Shown in pieces: positions 17,470-30,785 of a stretch of DNA of 33,012 nucleotides. The notes beneath the pieces were generated by a model. The model was not told the origin of the DNA. It made no database searches and saw only the letters and a list, made by a program, of their open reading frames with translations. Location of the stretch: IMG/VR virus record IMGVR_UViG_3300043570_000623, positions 1 to 33,012 of that record; one strand, written 5' to 3'. Both the position numbers and the translations under genes were made by a program. Position 1 is the first letter of the stretch. Every line of letters begins with the position of its first letter. The DNA is from a virus.

Positions 17470-17604
17470 TCATTTCCTCGAGTTCTGTCTTGCCTGTTCC
17501 TTTAGGACTGCAACGATTGCCCAGAACACGTCAGACGGTGCGTCCAACAGTTCATTGGGTGCAATGCTGGTGGCAACAGCAACCTGTGCCACCAGCATTG
17601 TCAT
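17470..17604 (-). CDS. Second tail-assembly chaperone segment (frameshift product of the preceding gene)
   Basis: A 44-aa helical frame. It has an ATG at 17604 (ATGA overlap with the stop of the first chaperone), but it is also exactly in the -1 frame after the slippery site at 17613-17619. The fused protein would be about 135 aa, as in the lambda gpG/gpGT arrangement, in which the fusion loads the tape measure and tail tube subunits. The visible pattern SIAPNELLDAPSDVFWAIV fits actinophage second-chaperone domains. Translation from its own ATG cannot be excluded. Confidence 0.8.
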   Translation of the reverse strand: MTMLVAQVAVATSIAPNELLDAPSDVFWAIVAVLKEQARQNSRK

Positions 17605-17876
17605 TGAATCTCTAAAGGGACGCGTTCAGCCTCTGCAGCCTCGATGGAATCAATACCGTCTAACCATTCATCAAATGGTTTGACGATGACTCCAGCAGAC
17701 TGAGATGCCTTCCACGCTGTCCAGCAGAGCGCTTCAAACGAAGCGTTCTCACCAAAGATTTGTGACATTGGTTTTGCGAACTGACGTTCCGCACCAACAA
17801 TCACTTTTGGTGTCACGTTCACTTCATACGTTGCCCCATCAGCAGGGACCACCCGGAGACGCATTAGCGCGGCCAT
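17601..17876 (-). CDS. Tail-assembly chaperone (G-like)
   Basis: A 91-aa protein with the common actinophage chaperone layout: an N-terminal beta segment LRVVPADGATYEVNV, a VGAERQF helix, then WTAWKASQSAGVIVKPFDEWLDGI (about residues 52-75). It helps assemble the tail tube around the tape measure and is absent from mature virions. The gene starts two bases after the tail tube stop and has no clear Shine-Dalgarno, so it is probably read by coupling. Its last codons hold the heptamer CCCTTTA, giving a predicted -1 frameshift into the next frame. Confidence 0.85.
   Translation of the reverse strand: MAALMRLRVVPADGATYEVNVTPKVIVGAERQFAKPMSQIFGENASFEALCWTAWKASQSAGVIVKPFDEWLDGIDSIEAAEAERVPLEIQ
17613..17619 (-). 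promoter_or_regulatory. Predicted -1 ribosomal frameshift site CCCTTTA
   Basis: On the coding strand the zero-frame codons read GTC CCT TTA GAG, so the heptamer C-CCT-TTA has the X-XXY-YYZ form in the right phase. Slipping back one base continues as AGA GAT TCA ATG, in frame with the 44-aa second chaperone segment. It lies 10 bases before the zero-frame stop. Confidence 0.8.
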
Positions 17877-18470: not shown

Positions 18471-18878
18471 TCATGCGTGAATGGAAAGATTGAACTCGCA
18501 GGTGAGATAGGAAGCATCACCAATTGAGAGCGGACGGATTGTGATCATGTCTTCCATGATCAATGTTGAGCAGGTTCCATCAAGGGTTCTGTCTGACTCG
18601 ATGGCTGCACGGATGGACTGTGCGCCATCCCATGACATCCAAGAGTCCAACGTGCGTTGCGCTGCACGGTCTCCCATGCGTCCAGCAATCACAGAGATGA
18701 CGTACTTCCACTCAGACAACCCACCCTGCATTGCACGGTGGTAGGTGACTGACTGAATCTGAATCACAGCCATTGGCGGTGAGACCTGTTCAGGGAGATG
18801 GTCAGCGATTCTGAGACCAGGCACAGTTGCCAAGGCCCGTGCTATCGCATCGTGGAGGTCTGCAGCGTTCCCAGCCAT
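18471..18878 (-). CDS. Tail terminator / head-tail joining protein
   Basis: A 135-aa protein. Its pattern fits the tail-terminator/neck family that caps the tail tube and joins it to the head: an N-terminal helix DLHDAIARAL, then a VSPPMAVIQIQS strand, then YVISVIAGR, a WMSWDG turn and a C-terminal beta segment LTCEFNLSIHA. Position just before the tube gene supports this. The ATG shares a base with the upstream connector stop. Confidence 0.78.
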   Translation of the reverse strand: MAGNAADLHDAIARALATVPGLRIADHLPEQVSPPMAVIQIQSVTYHRAMQGGLSEWKYVISVIAGRMGDRAAQRTLDSWMSWDGAQSIRAAIESDRTLDGTCSTLIMEDMITIRPLSIGDASYLTCEFNLSIHA

Positions 18879-19489
18879 CAGGCAACCACATGGATTCTGT
18901 ACGGACGCAACATCCGTTCGACGTCAGGATCAATGGCCCGGACTGTGATTGCGCCCAACTCACCGAAACCAGCGACACCAAGGAGGCTGTCACCACGCTT
19001 CACAAGACGACCTGCGAGGATCAGACACGCTGAGTGAACAGGGTCTGGGACTGCAGGCCAACCCCACTTGGCGGTGACCTGACATCCAGCAGGAACAGCA
19101 GCCATTGAGAACGCACCGTAGATTCTCGATGCAATAGAAGTGATGGGGTTCCCCTTCACAATCGCGTTCAACGGTTCCGCTTGAAAGTCTGCTGCAGCAA
19201 TGGTGGTTGCATAGGTGCCATCACCCGCTGCATCAGACTTCACAACCAGACCAGACGTTGAAGCGATGTCATCCACAAAGATGGTTGAACCATCAATGGA
19301 AGTGAACAACCGTGCAGACGCAACAGCGTCTGCATAGAACCGGCGGTTGCAATGAGTATCAATGACCCTTGATGCTTCATTGATGCGTGCTTCCAACAGT
19401 TCATCATCCACCGTGTCAAGAATGCGGAGGATCTCTTTCAGTTCAGCAAGGGTGCAATAGCCATTTGTGATTGTCACGGGAGTCTCCAC
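18878..19489 (-). CDS. Head-tail connector (gp6-like adaptor)
   Basis: A 203-aa protein. It has an N-terminal helical part, CTLAELKEILRI and LLEARINEASRVIDTHCNRRFY (about residues 12-52), as in gp6-type adaptors that bind the portal ring. A beta domain and a final helical part with CLILAGRLVKRG follow. It lies before the tail terminator gene, and its first 16 bases overlap the methyltransferase gene end. Confidence 0.85.
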   Translation of the reverse strand: METPVTITNGYCTLAELKEILRILDTVDDELLEARINEASRVIDTHCNRRFYADAVASARLFTSIDGSTIFVDDIASTSGLVVKSDAAGDGTYATTIAAADFQAEPLNAIVKGNPITSIASRIYGAFSMAAVPAGCQVTAKWGWPAVPDPVHSACLILAGRLVKRGDSLLGVAGFGELGAITVRAIDPDVERMLRPYRIHVVA

Positions 19490-20007
19490 ACGCGGACATA
19501 TCCGCTGACGATTTCAGGAATGTTGTGTTCAGCCATGTGAGCTGCAACTGCTGTCCCCTTGCCGTCACCGTTTCGATTGTCGTCAACGGCGACGATTGAG
19601 CCAGAGGTGAGCAGATGCCAACACAGGTTGAGTTCAGAGAGATGATGTTCAGACGCTGGTTCCGGGTTCGCAAAGTCAACATCGAAGGAGTCCAAATACA
19701 GGAAGTCAACGTGTTGAAGGTCAAGTGTTGGGATGACCTGCAAGGAATCCCCGGTGAGTGCTGTTGTGTTGAGAAGGTTCATCCGTTGCACAAGTTCAGC
19801 GCATCCCGGATCTAGGTCAATGGTTGTGACATGACCTGAGCGAATACCTGCATAGTGATCCCAGACAACCGTTGATTGTCCGTCACCAATCCAGTTCCCC
19901 GGTTCACGGATTGTTCCAGTCTCGAGAATCACGCAACCCTCTGGGAGCATTGCGGTGATTCGTTCAAAGGCTGTGAGCCTGTGACCAAGAAGGTTCCACG
20001 GGATCAT
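19474..20007 (-). CDS. SAM-dependent methyltransferase (class I, not DNA type)
   Basis: A 177-aa Rossmann methyltransferase resembling the Methyltransf_24/macrocin-type small-molecule or sugar methylases. Motif I is ETGTIREPGNW (29-39), acidic motif II is TIDLD (62-66), GDS lies at 86-88, YLDSFD at 104-109 and VDDN at 141-144. The YLDSFDVDFANP plus SEHHL run recalls methylases found near sugar-modifying enzymes in other phages. It overlaps the glycosyltransferase stop by 4 nt (ATGA), so the two are likely co-expressed. It may methylate the sugar added by that enzyme; this is inference. Confidence 0.82.
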   Translation of the reverse strand: MIPWNLLGHRLTAFERITAMLPEGCVILETGTIREPGNWIGDGQSTVVWDHYAGIRSGHVTTIDLDPGCAELVQRMNLLNTTALTGDSLQVIPTLDLQHVDFLYLDSFDVDFANPEPASEHHLSELNLCWHLLTSGSIVAVDDNRNGDGKGTAVAAHMAEHNIPEIVSGYVRVWRLP

Positions 20008-21278
20008 GCTTCACCCATTCTCTTATCAATCTCTGTGAGAATGGGTTTCCAATACCGGTTGAACACTTGGGAATGTTCATAGAACTCTGCATGAGACCGG
20101 GCTGCAGCGCGTCGCTCAGGATTGACTGAGGTCAGATACGCATCTTGCAGGTTCTCTACAATGGAATGAATGAGTGGTGTTGCAAACCATGAGGATTGCA
20201 GAGCGTCCCAATCAGGCTGAACAGCGGTGACCCAACCGTGATCTGCAACTAACTCTGGTTGAGCGGTGAACGCAGACACAATTGATGGGACACCACACGC
20301 TGCAGTCTCAAGGACTGGAACTCCGAAACCTTCACCACGGGAACACATCAGGTGAACGTCAAGTGATGCCATGATTCCAGCAAGAACACTTTGTGGAAGT
20401 CCTGCGTAGTAGGCCCATTGGTCAACCCACACCAGACGGTCTTCAGGGATGCCACATGCGTGAGCAAGTTTCACAAGGTCAATTCCACCTTGTGCGCCAC
20501 GCTTCTCAGAATGAATGTAAAGAAACACGTCTTCACGCTGCTGCATGAACTGTGCCATTGCCAGAAGGTTTTCTCCCCACGCTTTGCGTAGCGGGTTCGT
20601 TCCCTTATTGGCTGCAACGATTCCAACTAGGAATGCGTCTTCAGGAATGTTCAGGACTGTGCGTCCAGGCGCACCACCAATTGTTGCATCCGGTTTGAAC
20701 ACGGATGTGTCAACGCTGTGTGGTGCATACATTGAATCAATGTCTGCGTTGTGCAACATCTGTTCCCCAAAGCGGGACATTGCAATTGGCAGAACATTGT
20801 CCCGCTGACACCAGTCCAGAACATCTGGTGGTGCAGGTGTGTGATCAATAGGAACCCATGATGCAATCACGGGAACATCATCGATCTTGTGAGACTTGAA
20901 CACCCAGCAGTCAAAGAGTGTGATCAGCGCTGTGCGCTTTTTGGTTGTCTCTTCTGCGTACTTGGTATGCGCTGAGAGGACATCTGCTGAGTATGGGGTG
21001 AATCCGCAGGGGAGGACTTCGATACCTTCCCAACTGGAGATTCCCCCTTGCAGTCCGTAGTTGACTGAGAGGGTGACGGTTTCTTTTTCGCGTTTGATTG
21101 CTTGCGCGAGTGCGGCGGTTTGGACTCCGTATCCGGTTCCGGTCCACGGTGCGTTGGAGTGGATGAGATAACCGGTTGCGCTCGATGAGCGTCCAGCAGC
21201 GGTTCCGCTAACCAGTCGGGAAGTTCCACTTCCGCTCCGTGAATGAGAACCAGCATTGTTGTTCCGTTTCTTGCCCAT
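20004..21278 (-). CDS. Glycosyltransferase, GT-B fold (family 4-like)
   Basis: A 424-aa GT-B glycosyltransferase. After a low-complexity Ser/Asn/Gly N-terminus (1-35) comes the first Rossmann domain (YLIHSNAPWTGTGYGVQTAAL, about 37-57). The second domain has NKGTNPLRKAW (224-234, nucleotide-sugar binding) and the catalytic E-x7-E in EGFGVPVLE (Glu316, Glu324). It transfers a sugar to an unknown acceptor. The place right after the capsid gene suggests a virion protein, though host wall or DNA is possible. The ATG at 21278 has GGAG upstream; the longer frame crosses a hairpin. Confidence 0.88.
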   Translation of the reverse strand: MGKKRNNNAGSHSRSGSGTSRLVSGTAAGRSSSATGYLIHSNAPWTGTGYGVQTAALAQAIKREKETVTLSVNYGLQGGISSWEGIEVLPCGFTPYSADVLSAHTKYAEETTKKRTALITLFDCWVFKSHKIDDVPVIASWVPIDHTPAPPDVLDWCQRDNVLPIAMSRFGEQMLHNADIDSMYAPHSVDTSVFKPDATIGGAPGRTVLNIPEDAFLVGIVAANKGTNPLRKAWGENLLAMAQFMQQREDVFLYIHSEKRGAQGGIDLVKLAHACGIPEDRLVWVDQWAYYAGLPQSVLAGIMASLDVHLMCSRGEGFGVPVLETAACGVPSIVSAFTAQPELVADHGWVTAVQPDWDALQSSWFATPLIHSIVENLQDAYLTSVNPERRAAARSHAEFYEHSQVFNRYWKPILTEIDKRMGEA

Positions 21279-21315
21279 GTTGTTTTCTCCTTGGCCCGTG
21301 AGTGTTGCCCGTGGT

Positions 21316-21372
21316 GCGGGAGATGAAGACGCAACAGGTACGGGCCGACCTGCAGATATCTTCATCTCCCGC
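21316..21372 (-). other. Structured hairpin after the capsid gene
   Basis: GCGGGAGATGAAGA (21316-21329) pairs perfectly with 21359-21372 (14 bp), and an inner stem pairs 21335-21339 with 21348-21352. No U-run follows on the minus strand, so it may stabilise the capsid mRNA end or reduce read-through into the glycosyltransferase. A 6-bp stem (21386-21391 with 21397-21402) brackets the capsid stop codon. Confidence 0.7.
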
Positions 21373-21393
21373 GAACTCAGATGATGCGTCCGA

Positions 21394-22602
21394 TCAGGAC
21401 GCGCCACCCTTGAAATACTTCACAGCGTTTGCATCCACAACGTTGCCATCTCCGCGCCATGTGACACGGAAGGTGATCAGGTCATTGAGGAAGCCAACTG
21501 AATCGTCTCGACTCACATCGATACCGCGAACCTGTCGGACGAAATAGGCAGAAGCGAAGTCACCGAAGATGACCGAACGCGCACCGGTTGCAGCAGACGC
21601 AATGTCTGGGTTTTCCAGAACAGCGTGACCGAGCAACTGATCCGGCTGACCATCTTGGAAAGACGGTTGCCAGATGTAGGAACCGTTTCCGTCCTTGATC
21701 TTGCGGACAGCAGCGGTGGTTGCAGCGTTCATCTGGAATGCTGCTCCACGACGGCGATACGGTGATGCCACGGAATAAACGAGGTCCACCAGATTTTCAT
21801 AAGTCGGAACACCAGAAACACCAGTTCCACCGGTAACAGCAGAGCCTGCATTGGTGACGATACCGACAGGCTGAACCGTTCCGGTTCCAACCGTGAGTCC
21901 GTAGTTCACCGCGGTGCCCATGCCAACAGCAGCCTGCGACGCGACGAACGAAAGCAGATCAATACCGCTGTCCTCTACGACCTCTCGCGAGAGCTGAAAA
22001 CTAGCGGCATATTTGAACGCGCCAAGCGTAATGAACGCAGCAAACGTCGGATCCGATTCCGCAATAGCAGTTCCTTCTGCAGTAATAGCAGGAGCGGTGT
22101 ACGACGCGGTACGCGGGATCTGAAGGCTCTCACCTGACGTGGTGGTGAGCATCGTCACCACGTTGCCATCAAGCATTGGGCCTTGAATCACGAGTTGTTC
22201 AACCAGGCGATCATAGAAAGAAGTCGGAACCGGTGAACCGGTGCTGGACTTCAACACATCGCGCTGTTCAAACGAATGGTTGCGACGCTCACCCAGAGCA
22301 ATTTCACGGATGATGTCTGAATCATTCTTCACACCGGGTGCAACCTCACGGGCTGCAAAGTCGGCGGGAAGGCCAAGTGCTGAACGGGACTCATCAATGG
22401 CGCGTTCACGCTTCTCACCCTCAAGAAGGAAGGTGCGACGTGCGTCAAGTGCGTCAATGTCTGAGTTCATGCGGTTGAATTGTTCCGACTCTTCGCCGGT
22501 AAGGTCTCGACCTTCAGCAGCCGCGTCATCAAGAAGGCTCTTGGCCTGTTCCCATGCACGCGCGCGCTGTTCGGTCAGACGTGAGATGAGTTCTTCACTC
22601 AT
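21394..22602 (-). CDS. Major capsid protein, HK97 fold
   Basis: A 402-aa shell protein. Residues about 1-100 are a charged helical scaffold-like delta domain (many Glu, Arg and Ala), expected to be cut off by the prohead protease. The capsid domain follows: SFYDRLVEQLV, then LQIPRTASYTAPAITAEGTAI, then FQLSREVVEDSGIDLLSFV, then GHAVLENPD and SVIFGDFASAYFVRQVRGI near the end, which are typical HK97-family landmarks. The start is at 22602, seven bases after GGAGG. Flanking hairpins and a weak promoter-like site suggest it is expressed separately. Confidence 0.95.
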   Translation of the reverse strand: MSEELISRLTEQRARAWEQAKSLLDDAAAEGRDLTGEESEQFNRMNSDIDALDARRTFLLEGEKRERAIDESRSALGLPADFAAREVAPGVKNDSDIIREIALGERRNHSFEQRDVLKSSTGSPVPTSFYDRLVEQLVIQGPMLDGNVVTMLTTTSGESLQIPRTASYTAPAITAEGTAIAESDPTFAAFITLGAFKYAASFQLSREVVEDSGIDLLSFVASQAAVGMGTAVNYGLTVGTGTVQPVGIVTNAGSAVTGGTGVSGVPTYENLVDLVYSVASPYRRRGAAFQMNAATTAAVRKIKDGNGSYIWQPSFQDGQPDQLLGHAVLENPDIASAATGARSVIFGDFASAYFVRQVRGIDVSRDDSVGFLNDLITFRVTWRGDGNVVDANAVKYFKGGAS

Positions 22603-26902: not shown

Positions 26903-27463
26903 TCATTTCAAAAGATCAGAAATCCAATCATCAAGATTGGCGAACTCAACACCACAGCCACGGAACCTCTGCCCCGTCACCGTTATGTAACGGCCTGCAC
27001 CGTAAATCTCCACGTCCCCGGTTCTGCGTCCTGACATGAAGTCAGCGTGACCCCAGACATGGAGACCAGATCCAGAAGGTGACACCTCCACATAGGTAGA
27101 AGGCATCTTGCCCAACAGATCACGCGCCCAAGACTCGAGTCTTCCGCGACGGTCAAGGCAATGATCAATGTCAACACACACGATGGAATCAGCGGGTGAC
27201 AGAACGAAACCGACACCAACACCAACAGACGATGAGGACGCAACTTCCCACGACACCCAAGAACCGGGGTCAGTAGAACTTGCATTCCCACCAGTCACAC
27301 GCAACGGAACCTTGTCCGCTGACCAGCGCACCCACCTAGGGATGTCACGGAGAGTCTGAGCAGGTAGCGAACGGTGAGACGCAACCCTGCAACGGGTGCT
27401 GCAGTAGCGGGAATCACCACGCGCAAGAAGCGCAACGGGACCAGAGCAGCGGAGACAGACCAT
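26903..27463 (-). CDS. Short primase-polymerase-like protein with N-terminal zinc finger
   Basis: A 186-aa protein. The N-terminus has four cysteines (3, 6, 21, 25), a likely zinc finger. The body matches the archaeo-eukaryotic primase/bifunctional DNA primase-polymerase N-terminal domain: RWVRW, then TDPGSWVSW, then VDIDHC with Asp98 and Asp100, then SPSGSGLHVWG with His135 and a GAGRYITVTG strand. It would make primers or short DNA, but lacks a helicase part. It lies beside the terminase and far from the main primase gene. It may act at packaging or on ends; inference only. Confidence 0.8.
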   Translation of the reverse strand: MVCLRCSGPVALLARGDSRYCSTRCRVASHRSLPAQTLRDIPRWVRWSADKVPLRVTGGNASSTDPGSWVSWEVASSSSVGVGVGFVLSPADSIVCVDIDHCLDRRGRLESWARDLLGKMPSTYVEVSPSGSGLHVWGHADFMSGRRTGDVEIYGAGRYITVTGQRFRGCGVEFANLDDWISDLLK

Positions 27464-28607: not shown

Positions 28608-30785
28608 TCAGAACAGGTCTTCTGGGTGGCTAACCGCGCCAGAGTGGTTGGTTTGGTTGGGTGTTGAGTTGGTGGTTGGAACTGATCCTTCTACCGCGCC
28701 ATCCGTCCCTTTTAGTAAAGGGGCGGGACGGTTGGCGCGGTTAGAAGTTGGCAACTGCTCCGGGTCTTCTTGGCGCGGTTCGGCGCGGTTGGCGCGGTTA
28801 GGTTCAGGCTGTGGTTCTTGTGGGGTTTGTGGCTCAATTGTGAGGGTGTCCATGACTTCATATTTCTTCAGCAATGTGAAGTTGAACCCTCCTCCTTTGC
28901 CTGTCCTGAGGGTGCGTTCTACATAGCCACGTTCCATGAGGTCTTCCAGCGTGTCTATGACTGCACGTCTGGGAAGTGGTTTGCACGCTTCAATGAGTCC
29001 GTTCTGTGTCTGTGTTCCCATTCCCAGCACCTGACTGATCTTCTGTGCAGCGTCTGATGGGATGGCTGCTTCAGGGTCTGCAATGGTGACAAGGACTCCC
29101 ACAGCGGTGTCTGTGATGGTGATTGCTGCAACGGTGGTTCCGTGTCTGTAGGTTCCGTGACGGTCCTTGGCGACGGTGAGACGCAGTTTCCCTTCCTGAC
29201 CTTTGGCTGGTGGGGTGGTTACGTCTACCCGGTAGGACGCACCGTCAATTGCAGCCAACTTCCGTTGGGAGCCAATAGCAAACCTTTTGGATGCTTCATT
29301 GGACTTGGGAACATGGTCGAGGAGCAGGACGGTGGATCCTGCACGGGTGAGTCTGCGTGGCAGTTTGCGGAACCATGCTGCTATCTCATCGTCAGCATTG
29401 GGATTGATTCCGTCCATGGAGACTGCTTCACCGGTTGAATCAATGATGGTGAGTTCAATCCCCTTTGTCACAACCATGTTCTCGAGATAGTGGCCTGCAC
29501 GGTCGTTGTATGGGGCTACGGGGGATATGTAGGTGAAGAGTTCCAGCACCTGTTGTTGTGTGCATCCAAGTTGTGTCATGCGGTTGGTAACTGAGCCTGG
29601 ATGGTCTTCAAAGTCTAGGAACAGGACGCGTTGTCCGTTCTGGATGGTTTGTGCTGCAGCGAGCATGGACACCCACGTTTTCCCTGACCCACTCTCACCG
29701 TAAAGTGCGTTTATGCGTGCAGGGTAGAGAAGTGCTGCACCGTCCATTCTGGTGAGGATGGTTGGGGTGACTTGCTCATGGGTTCCGTGGAGGATTGCTG
29801 CAAGGTCTGTTGGTTCCCATCCGTGATCTAGTTCTTCAATGTCAGCGGGTGTGGGTGCTGGGAGTGTGGTCGGAAGTGTTGCTTCCCATGCGTTGACCGC
29901 GGCCATGTCGTAGTCACGGAGTGTCCGTGCAGCCTGTGAACGGTCACCTGCGTGGTGTCGTTGTGCGTAATACCCAAACCGGGAGTAGGGGTTCTCTGGG
30001 AGCCATGGGATAGAGGATGTGAAGACACGCATCATGTCTTGTCCGTTCCAACCCACCGTTGCTGATGTCCCCTCATCCTTACCGGGACGGGTCCAATGTT
30101 GTTCACCAGTCCGGTCTGTGTGATCGAGAGTCCAGCCATCAGCGGTGAGTAGTTCAGCCCATGTGGTGCGTTGGTTGTATCTGGCAGCAACAGAGTCTTC
30201 ATCAGCGTTGCTGGACACACGGGTGACGGGTTGGTGGGTTGGTTCTGGTTGTGCGGTGATCAGTTCAATGAGCCATTCCGGGGCTGGTGCAACGGGTGCT
30301 GGTTCTCCTCCCACCCATGCGTACGGGTTGCCTGATTGATGCACAGACGGTGGTGCAACTACCTGTCCACCTTCACCCCGGATGTCTAGTCCCGGACCCA
30401 ACTTGCGTCCTGCATCGTTGCGGATCTCGATTCCTTCAGGGTGTTGGAAGTAGTAGTGAACTCCACCGGACCCGGTGAGAACGGTTGCTGTGTCGGGTAG
30501 TGGACCGTGGGTCTGTTCTAGTTCGTGGAGGGTTTCATCTCCGGTCTTGCCTTCTGACACGTCCACGTCCAGCACGAACACCCCAGATTCCTGTCCGGTT
30601 GCAATACCAATCCCGTGGTCTGCATATTGTCCCAGCCACCATTGGTGAATGGTGTTGGTGTCTGTGGTGGCGATTGTCTGCCATGAGTGCATGGGTGGAC
30701 GCTTCCCAGCGGGGATGATTGGGATGACTCTCCACCCGTTGTGTTGGTAGGTGTCTGTGTAATCAAACACGTCTTCCATTGTCAT
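28608..30785 (-). CDS. Primase-polymerase / RepA-like helicase
   Basis: A 725-aa replication protein. N-terminus (about 1-175): bifunctional primase-polymerase domain with LDVDV (Asp73, Asp75), TGSGGVH (His110) and LDIRGEGG (133-140). Middle: RecA-like ATPase with Walker A GESGSGKT (363-370), Walker B LTIIDS (445-450) and a LLLDHVPK sensor segment. C-terminus: winged-helix-like part (AVIDTLEDLMERGYVERTL), then a repetitive Asn-Arg-Ala/Pro-rich tail encoded by the iteron-like repeats. It would prime and unwind phage DNA. The ATG overlaps the upstream stop by 4 nt. Confidence 0.93.
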   Translation of the reverse strand: MTMEDVFDYTDTYQHNGWRVIPIIPAGKRPPMHSWQTIATTDTNTIHQWWLGQYADHGIGIATGQESGVFVLDVDVSEGKTGDETLHELEQTHGPLPDTATVLTGSGGVHYYFQHPEGIEIRNDAGRKLGPGLDIRGEGGQVVAPPSVHQSGNPYAWVGGEPAPVAPAPEWLIELITAQPEPTHQPVTRVSSNADEDSVAARYNQRTTWAELLTADGWTLDHTDRTGEQHWTRPGKDEGTSATVGWNGQDMMRVFTSSIPWLPENPYSRFGYYAQRHHAGDRSQAARTLRDYDMAAVNAWEATLPTTLPAPTPADIEELDHGWEPTDLAAILHGTHEQVTPTILTRMDGAALLYPARINALYGESGSGKTWVSMLAAAQTIQNGQRVLFLDFEDHPGSVTNRMTQLGCTQQQVLELFTYISPVAPYNDRAGHYLENMVVTKGIELTIIDSTGEAVSMDGINPNADDEIAAWFRKLPRRLTRAGSTVLLLDHVPKSNEASKRFAIGSQRKLAAIDGASYRVDVTTPPAKGQEGKLRLTVAKDRHGTYRHGTTVAAITITDTAVGVLVTIADPEAAIPSDAAQKISQVLGMGTQTQNGLIEACKPLPRRAVIDTLEDLMERGYVERTLRTGKGGGFNFTLLKKYEVMDTLTIEPQTPQEPQPEPNRANRAEPRQEDPEQLPTSNRANRPAPLLKGTDGAVEGSVPTTNSTPNQTNHSGAVSHPEDLF
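28632..28799. repeat. Iteron-like 9-bp repeats, candidate replication origin
   Basis: GGCGCGGTT occurs at 28734-28742, 28772-28780, 28782-28790 and 28791-28799. The reverse, AACCGCGCC, is at 28632-28640, with a near copy (one mismatch) at 28692-28700. The last three are spaced 10 and 9 bp, about one helical turn. A small CCCTTT/AAAGGG hairpin (28707-28722) lies between. All lie in the 3' end of the primase-helicase gene. Confidence 0.55.

Follow-up and report, generated by a model that had tools for sequence, protein, structure and literature searches.

A putative virion-glycosylation cassette between the capsid and connector genes of HK97-type siphoviruses

Virion glycosylation in the mycobacteriophages Che8, Corndog and Myrna is described in PMC4351075 and PMC12363180, the latter also reporting, with reference to Freeman 2023, that phage glycosyltransferases (GTs) glycosylate the capsid and the tail tube. 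In Corndog, an O-methyltransferase gene and three GT genes lie between the portal and protease genes, and a modification of the capsid has been proposed (PMC4351075). In chlorovirus PBCV-1, A064R and A061L provide GTs and methyltransferases, the latter O-methylating the terminal sugar of the major capsid glycan (PMC9614988). A further arrangement is found in genes 010-012 of Pontimonas phage phiPsal1 (MG835450), where GenBank already annotates a GT gene with a methyltransferase and then a GT2 gene behind it; the phiPsal1 paper (PMC6106888) does not discuss the phage genes.

The window (the whole stretch of DNA analysed here, a 33,012-base virus record) carries a GT gene and a methyltransferase (MT) gene between the genes for the capsid and the head-tail connector. 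As in Corndog (cluster O, gp35-gp38), a putative O-methyltransferase stands beside a GT within the head gene operon, but the Corndog cassette occupies the portal-protease slot, whereas the putative cassette of the window occupies the capsid-connector slot. A tblastn search with the window GT against 50,697 phage records (E 1e-3) listed 6 records, with no mycobacteriophage among them; the window GT was therefore probably recruited independently of Corndog. The gene arrangement in relatives, together with the purifying selection and the correlated distances described below, supports a swappable virion-glycosylation cassette comparable to Corndog's. The GT and capsid of phiPsal1 match those of the window at 35% and 38%, and the slot is the same, although its methyltransferase belongs to a different family and lies on the opposite strand, and a GT2 gene is added. 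The order proposed below for the window, glycosylation followed by O-methylation on a capsid glycan, is that of PBCV-1; unlike the window, chloroviruses infect eukaryotic algae, the GT domains of A064R fall in other GT families, and the first methyltransferase is fused.

Gene order and predicted enzymes of the window

The late operon is encoded on the minus strand and runs from the terminase (26709-25216) through portal, prohead protease, capsid, GT, MT and connector to tail completion, major tail protein, two small genes and the tape measure (Table 1). An earlier note had described a GT and a small SAM methyltransferase joined by an ATGA overlap between capsid and connector, and Pfam, PHROG and the coordinates confirmed this. 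The span it gave, 20004-22602, does contain the GT, but it also takes in the capsid gene and misses the MT, and the operon reads on the minus strand. The ATGA overlap of GT and MT lies at 20007-20004 and is followed by a GTGA overlap at 19477-19474, in which the GTG start of the connector overlaps the MT stop; a longer connector frame opens at 19489. The GT most likely starts at the ATG at 21278 behind AAGGAG and not at the GTG at 21407, because homologues begin at the former.

Table 1 Features of the capsid-connector region
Feature	Position	Strand	Basis
HK97-fold major capsid protein, 402 aa	21394..22602	-	Phage_capsid E 3.5e-59; PHROG 10
Capsid-GT intergenic RNA element (putative), 118 nt	21279..21396	-	Folding, covariation, loop pairing
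GT-B / GT4-type glycosyltransferase (GT, predicted), 424 aa	20004..21278	-	Pfam, PHROG, AlphaFold, PDB comparison
Disordered basic Ser/Gly/Asn-rich GT N-terminus, ~35 residues	21174..21278	-	pLDDT, composition
Class I SAM methyltransferase (MT, predicted), 177 aa	19474..20007	-	Pfam Methyltransf_24, AlphaFold, COMT-like fold
gp6-like head-tail connector	18878..19477	-	Phage_connect_1; PHROG 442

The GT matched the group-1 GT families of Pfam, Glyco_trans_1_4 (35 bits, cut-off 27) and Glycos_transf_1 (33.3 bits, cut-off 26.4) as well as PHROG 2170 "glycosyltransferase" (E 6e-24); NCBIfam profiles gave no match above cut-off for GT and none for MT. Its AlphaFold model (pLDDT 83, pTM 0.84) has a two-Rossmann GT-B fold and aligned with GT-B structures of the PDB at Z up to 31 over ~350 residues, and both glutamates of its EX7E motif (E316, E324) were invariant in 26 aligned sequences. 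The protein is thus a probable GT-B/GT4 enzyme, predicted to carry out the first sugar transfer. Its best Foldseek match was B736L of chlorovirus NY-2A (3oy2) and its best PDB sequence match a methylmannose-polysaccharide mannosyltransferase (7qsg), while the structural matches in the PDB were of the small-molecule or lipid type (MshA, PimA, BshA). The acceptors of GT4 enzymes are mostly small molecules and lipids.

This nearness of the fold to cell-envelope and small-molecule GTs favours an alternative in which the cassette alters host surface glycans late in infection, for superinfection exclusion or release, and leaves the virion as it is; a change of the cell wall was proposed for actinophage GTs by the authors of the Nanopelagicales phage study (PMC10202952). 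However, no membrane segment was found in GT or MT (maximum 19-residue hydropathy 1.37 and 1.14, respectively), the neighbouring genes, all structural, included no recognised flippase and no GT of the polyprenyl-phosphate type, and the fixed capsid-adjacent position across wide divergence would not be expected of such a system, so that we consider it unlikely. The locus also differs from a gtrABC-type serotype conversion cassette, its neighbours being capsid and connector genes, with no flippase and no membrane-like segment in either enzyme.

The earlier note had further pictured the GT N-terminus as a low-complexity Ser/Asn stretch that might bind the capsid or serve as an acceptor itself. 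Low complexity was borne out by the composition of the first 36 residues (9 S, 7 G, 3 N), but the stretch is also basic (4 R, 2 K). The suggested role found no support and was abandoned: residues 1-30 have a pLDDT of ~30 and are predicted to be disordered, and the Arg/Lys-containing extension varies among relatives and is absent in phiPsal1 and Microcystis phage Mae-JY09, whose enzyme occupies the same slot.

The MT matched Pfam Methyltransf_24 just above the cut-off (27.6 versus 26.3 bits). Its AlphaFold model (pLDDT 91) showed a class I SAM fold of the COMT type, aligning best with catechol O-methyltransferases (Z 17.1, rmsd 2.3, 155 aligned residues), then with mycobacterial MeT1 (16.3) and MycF (15.3), and the sugar O-methyltransferase SpnH was among the Foldseek matches. 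SpnH, MycF and MeT1 share the fold, yet at an identity of ~18-21%, and the matches also include the tRNA methyltransferase TrmR, which is the sole PDB sequence match below E 0.01; the COMT-like fold is common to tRNA and small-molecule methyltransferases. Residues D106, after strand 4, and D142-D143-N144, after strand 5, were invariant among relatives and stand at the places at which a COMT-type enzyme would be expected to bind its metal, which makes them candidate ligands. On its model, the MT is closest to metal-dependent O-methyltransferases, and its probable task is O-methylation of the sugar added by GT.

The window also encodes a resuscitation-factor-type transglycosylase domain. This domain and the origin of the relative phiPsal1 in a Microbacteriaceae culture suggest an actinobacterial host, and several cassette-bearing siphoviruses are linked to actinobacteria. 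Elsewhere, the window carries two DNA methylases, of the C5-cytosine and the N6/N4 type, that probably modify phage DNA (3288-4385 and 32466-32972 (-)), and two Prim-Pol-like proteins, a short one and one joined to an ATPase domain (26903-27463 and 28608-30785 (-)). The region at 28-31 kb has a strong GC and AT skew.

Contents of the capsid-connector interval in relatives

Searches with the GT yielded 80 viral loci and 14 genome-assembly loci, the latter all from metagenome-assembled or uncultured bins, and searches seeded with the capsids of phiPsal1 and L097 added further loci. The earlier note had named relatives carrying the two genes at unrelated sites as an outcome that would speak against it. 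The idea withstood this test. We compared 96 distinct intervals in which both capsid and connector were present, and 82 had the GT in the slot, a share that is not a population frequency because sampling was partly by GT (the capsid-seeded searches being less biased); the window-type MT was present in 24 of 25 clade A intervals, always behind GT and overlapping it in the closest relatives. Because it recurs in dozens of independent contigs, the arrangement is not due to chance. Same-slot holders of the GT include phiPsal1, with a Microbacteriaceae host, Mae-JY09 and loci from metagenome-assembled genomes.

The partners of the GT were identified by Pfam (Epimerase, Glycos_transf_2, Methyltransf_24, Methyltransf_11). 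The commonest contents of the 82 intervals were GT with MT24 (24), GT with GT2 (20) and GT with GTb and epimerase (15), followed by GT with epimerase and GT2 (5), GT with GTb (5), GT with a reversed MT and GT2 (4) and single other mixes; the GT stood alone or with unrecognised genes in 6 of the 96. Intervals lacking this GT held GT2 only (2/96) or no recognised cassette gene (12/96). In L179, the capsid is followed first by a reversed methyltransferase (L179:2748-3365) and then by the GT; cassette order can therefore change.

Eight relatives (L155, L167-L172 and L178) have an empty slot, the connector frame opening 16-81 nt past the capsid stop, with a terminator-like hairpin. As these relatives join the capsid directly to the connector, the description of the pair as an insertion between these two genes held.

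Pairwise distances of GT, capsid and connector correlated at 0.87-0.90 (79 sequences, Mantel p 0.001), with r 0.90 for GT against capsid and likewise 0.90 for GT against connector. The dN/dS values, ~0.08-0.12 for GT and 0.04-0.16 for MT, indicate purifying selection on both. Judged by these sequences, the GT resembles a permanent member of the head module, and the second step an interchangeable unit.

The pair might also consist of unrelated passengers, the GT acting on virion or host targets and the MT on protein or nucleic acid. MT homologues do occur without this GT cassette in the cyanophages S-EIV1 and P-TIM68, where they stand apart from a cassette of this type or in an unrelated context, TrmR is the nearest PDB sequence match of the MT, and the clade A locus L024 has a GT but no MT, its connector match starting 15 nt past the GT match (L024:6663-6678). 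Against this stand the adjacency of the two genes throughout the rest of clade A, the other methyltransferases that occupy the same slot in phiPsal1 and L083, and the methyltransferase in the head operon of Corndog, and we regard unrelated passengers as improbable.

Proposed pathway of virion decoration

We propose, with a probability of about 0.6, that a sizeable group of HK97-type siphoviruses carries a virion-glycosylation cassette inserted between the capsid and connector genes. The virion decoration put forward in the earlier note is thus upheld in part, through the capsid-connector cassette and the co-occurrence of GT and MT, but without its N-terminal acceptor. The GT would take a host-made nucleotide sugar, no sugar-nucleotide pathway gene having been recognised in the window, and would add the sugar to a late structural protein. 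The candidate acceptor is most likely the capsid protein made just upstream, although the sugar could instead go to a protein of the tail or to a glycan of the host. The O-methyltransferase would then methylate and so cap the added sugar, with acceptor, sugar and reaction order being our inference. In relatives, exchange of the second step for another GT, a GT2 or an epimerase would yield end glycans that differ but share the conserved first step. The presence of GT2, a second GT or an epimerase in place of the MT fits a stepwise building of a glycan, and the NAD-dependent epimerase/dehydratase and GT2 partners are hard to account for otherwise.

Glucosylation that protects phage DNA was proposed for some freshwater actinophage GTs (PMC10202952). 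For the window GT this is very improbable given its late structural position, the lack of a recognised hydroxymethylase or modified-nucleotide gene in the window, and the C5-cytosine and N6/N4 methylases encoded elsewhere, which account for DNA modification. Virion glycosylation would be a rival to the published suggestions for actinophage GTs, namely DNA protection or a block to superinfection. What was a single annotation becomes a pattern that can be tested, with many uncultured phages holding one capsid-adjacent GT and exchanging the finishing enzyme. The swapping looks as if the sugar of the shell were varied; such variation would have an effect on adsorption and on the chemistry of the particle surface.

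The RNA hairpin behind the capsid gene

The gap between capsid and GT folds into a long hairpin (MFE -44.8 kcal/mol, z -3.1), with the 5' arm of the stem starting at ~21372 and the 3' arm ending at ~21316. Relatives keep a strong post-capsid hairpin despite differing sequence. In clade B, 18 cells were changed on both sides with pairing preserved, and covariation was 0.180 versus 0.052 after shuffling (0/500) and ≤0.042 in slid controls. The number of base pairs (median 19, versus 15 in capsid coding sequence) was not discriminating; the case for an RNA element therefore rests on covariation and loop pairing.

The loop of the window hairpin, GGCCCGT, is complementary to ACGGGCC, which adjoins the GT Shine-Dalgarno AAGGAG. 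The complements of loop and GT start differ by clade, namely TGCGCAG/CTGCGCA, TGTAGGTT/AACCTACA, TCTAGGTT/AACCTAGA and TGTGTGGC/GCCACACA. Over 33 loop classes, the score of the loop with its own GT-start partner was 18.5, versus 13.0 for permuted partners (p ≤ 5e-5, an overstatement of independence as the classes are related by ancestry) and 13.2 for sequence further downstream in the same genomes. Cassette-free relatives had no loop partner near the connector start, and several had one where the gene behind the major tail protein starts.

Pairing of the loop with the start of that gene, seen in many relatives, gave z 7.6 (27 classes, likewise related by ancestry) and was seen at L124:8373-8395, L157:8660-8685, L167:2834-2860 and L170:5310-5322, also in phages without GT. 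A conserved Asn-Leu codon pair confounds this signal in part, and the pairing is weak in the window itself. The partner lies at or upstream of the start codon in L170, L098, L218 and L223, however, where protein coding cannot explain the pairing. Starts after the portal, protease and tail-completion genes showed no pairing (z -0.4, -0.9 and -1.8), and the start after the connector showed weak pairing (z 2.4, p 0.01). Among contigs outside the set on which the idea was formed, L264 had both pairings, L267/L268 and L269 had the GT pairing, and L270 and L273-L278 had neither. Loop pairing thus fails in the latter lineages and in phiPsal1 itself; it is widespread, not universal.

Two other roles were considered for the hairpin. 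As an intrinsic terminator it was rejected in the window, having no U-run, and a terminator scan found none there; a hairpin with a U-run, resembling an intrinsic terminator, is present in phiPsal1 and most cassette-free relatives. A stimulator of readthrough or frameshifting at the capsid stop is disfavoured by the distance from stop to stem, which varies from roughly 10 to 55 nt. Rfam gave no match for the junction RNA at gathering thresholds.

We put at even odds the reading of the post-capsid hairpin as a regulatory RNA whose loop pairs with the GT start and also, either over a distance or in trans (as a 3'-end RNA), with the start of the gene downstream of the major tail protein. The genes behind the two most abundant virion proteins would then be held down. 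In phages that lack the cassette and have the connector behind the capsid, the loop and its pairing at the gene past the tail protein are mostly retained, and the nearby partner is gone. Its probable function would be to tune translation of low-copy genes, pairing at the GT start keeping synthesis of the enzyme below the level of the capsid. If it is confirmed, the setting of protein ratios in phage late operons by an RNA element beside the capsid gene would be unusual. A second strong hairpin (TGCTGGTGGCA...TGCCACCAGCA) is located at 17470-17605 (-), in the intergenic stretch that separates the two small genes past the major tail protein.
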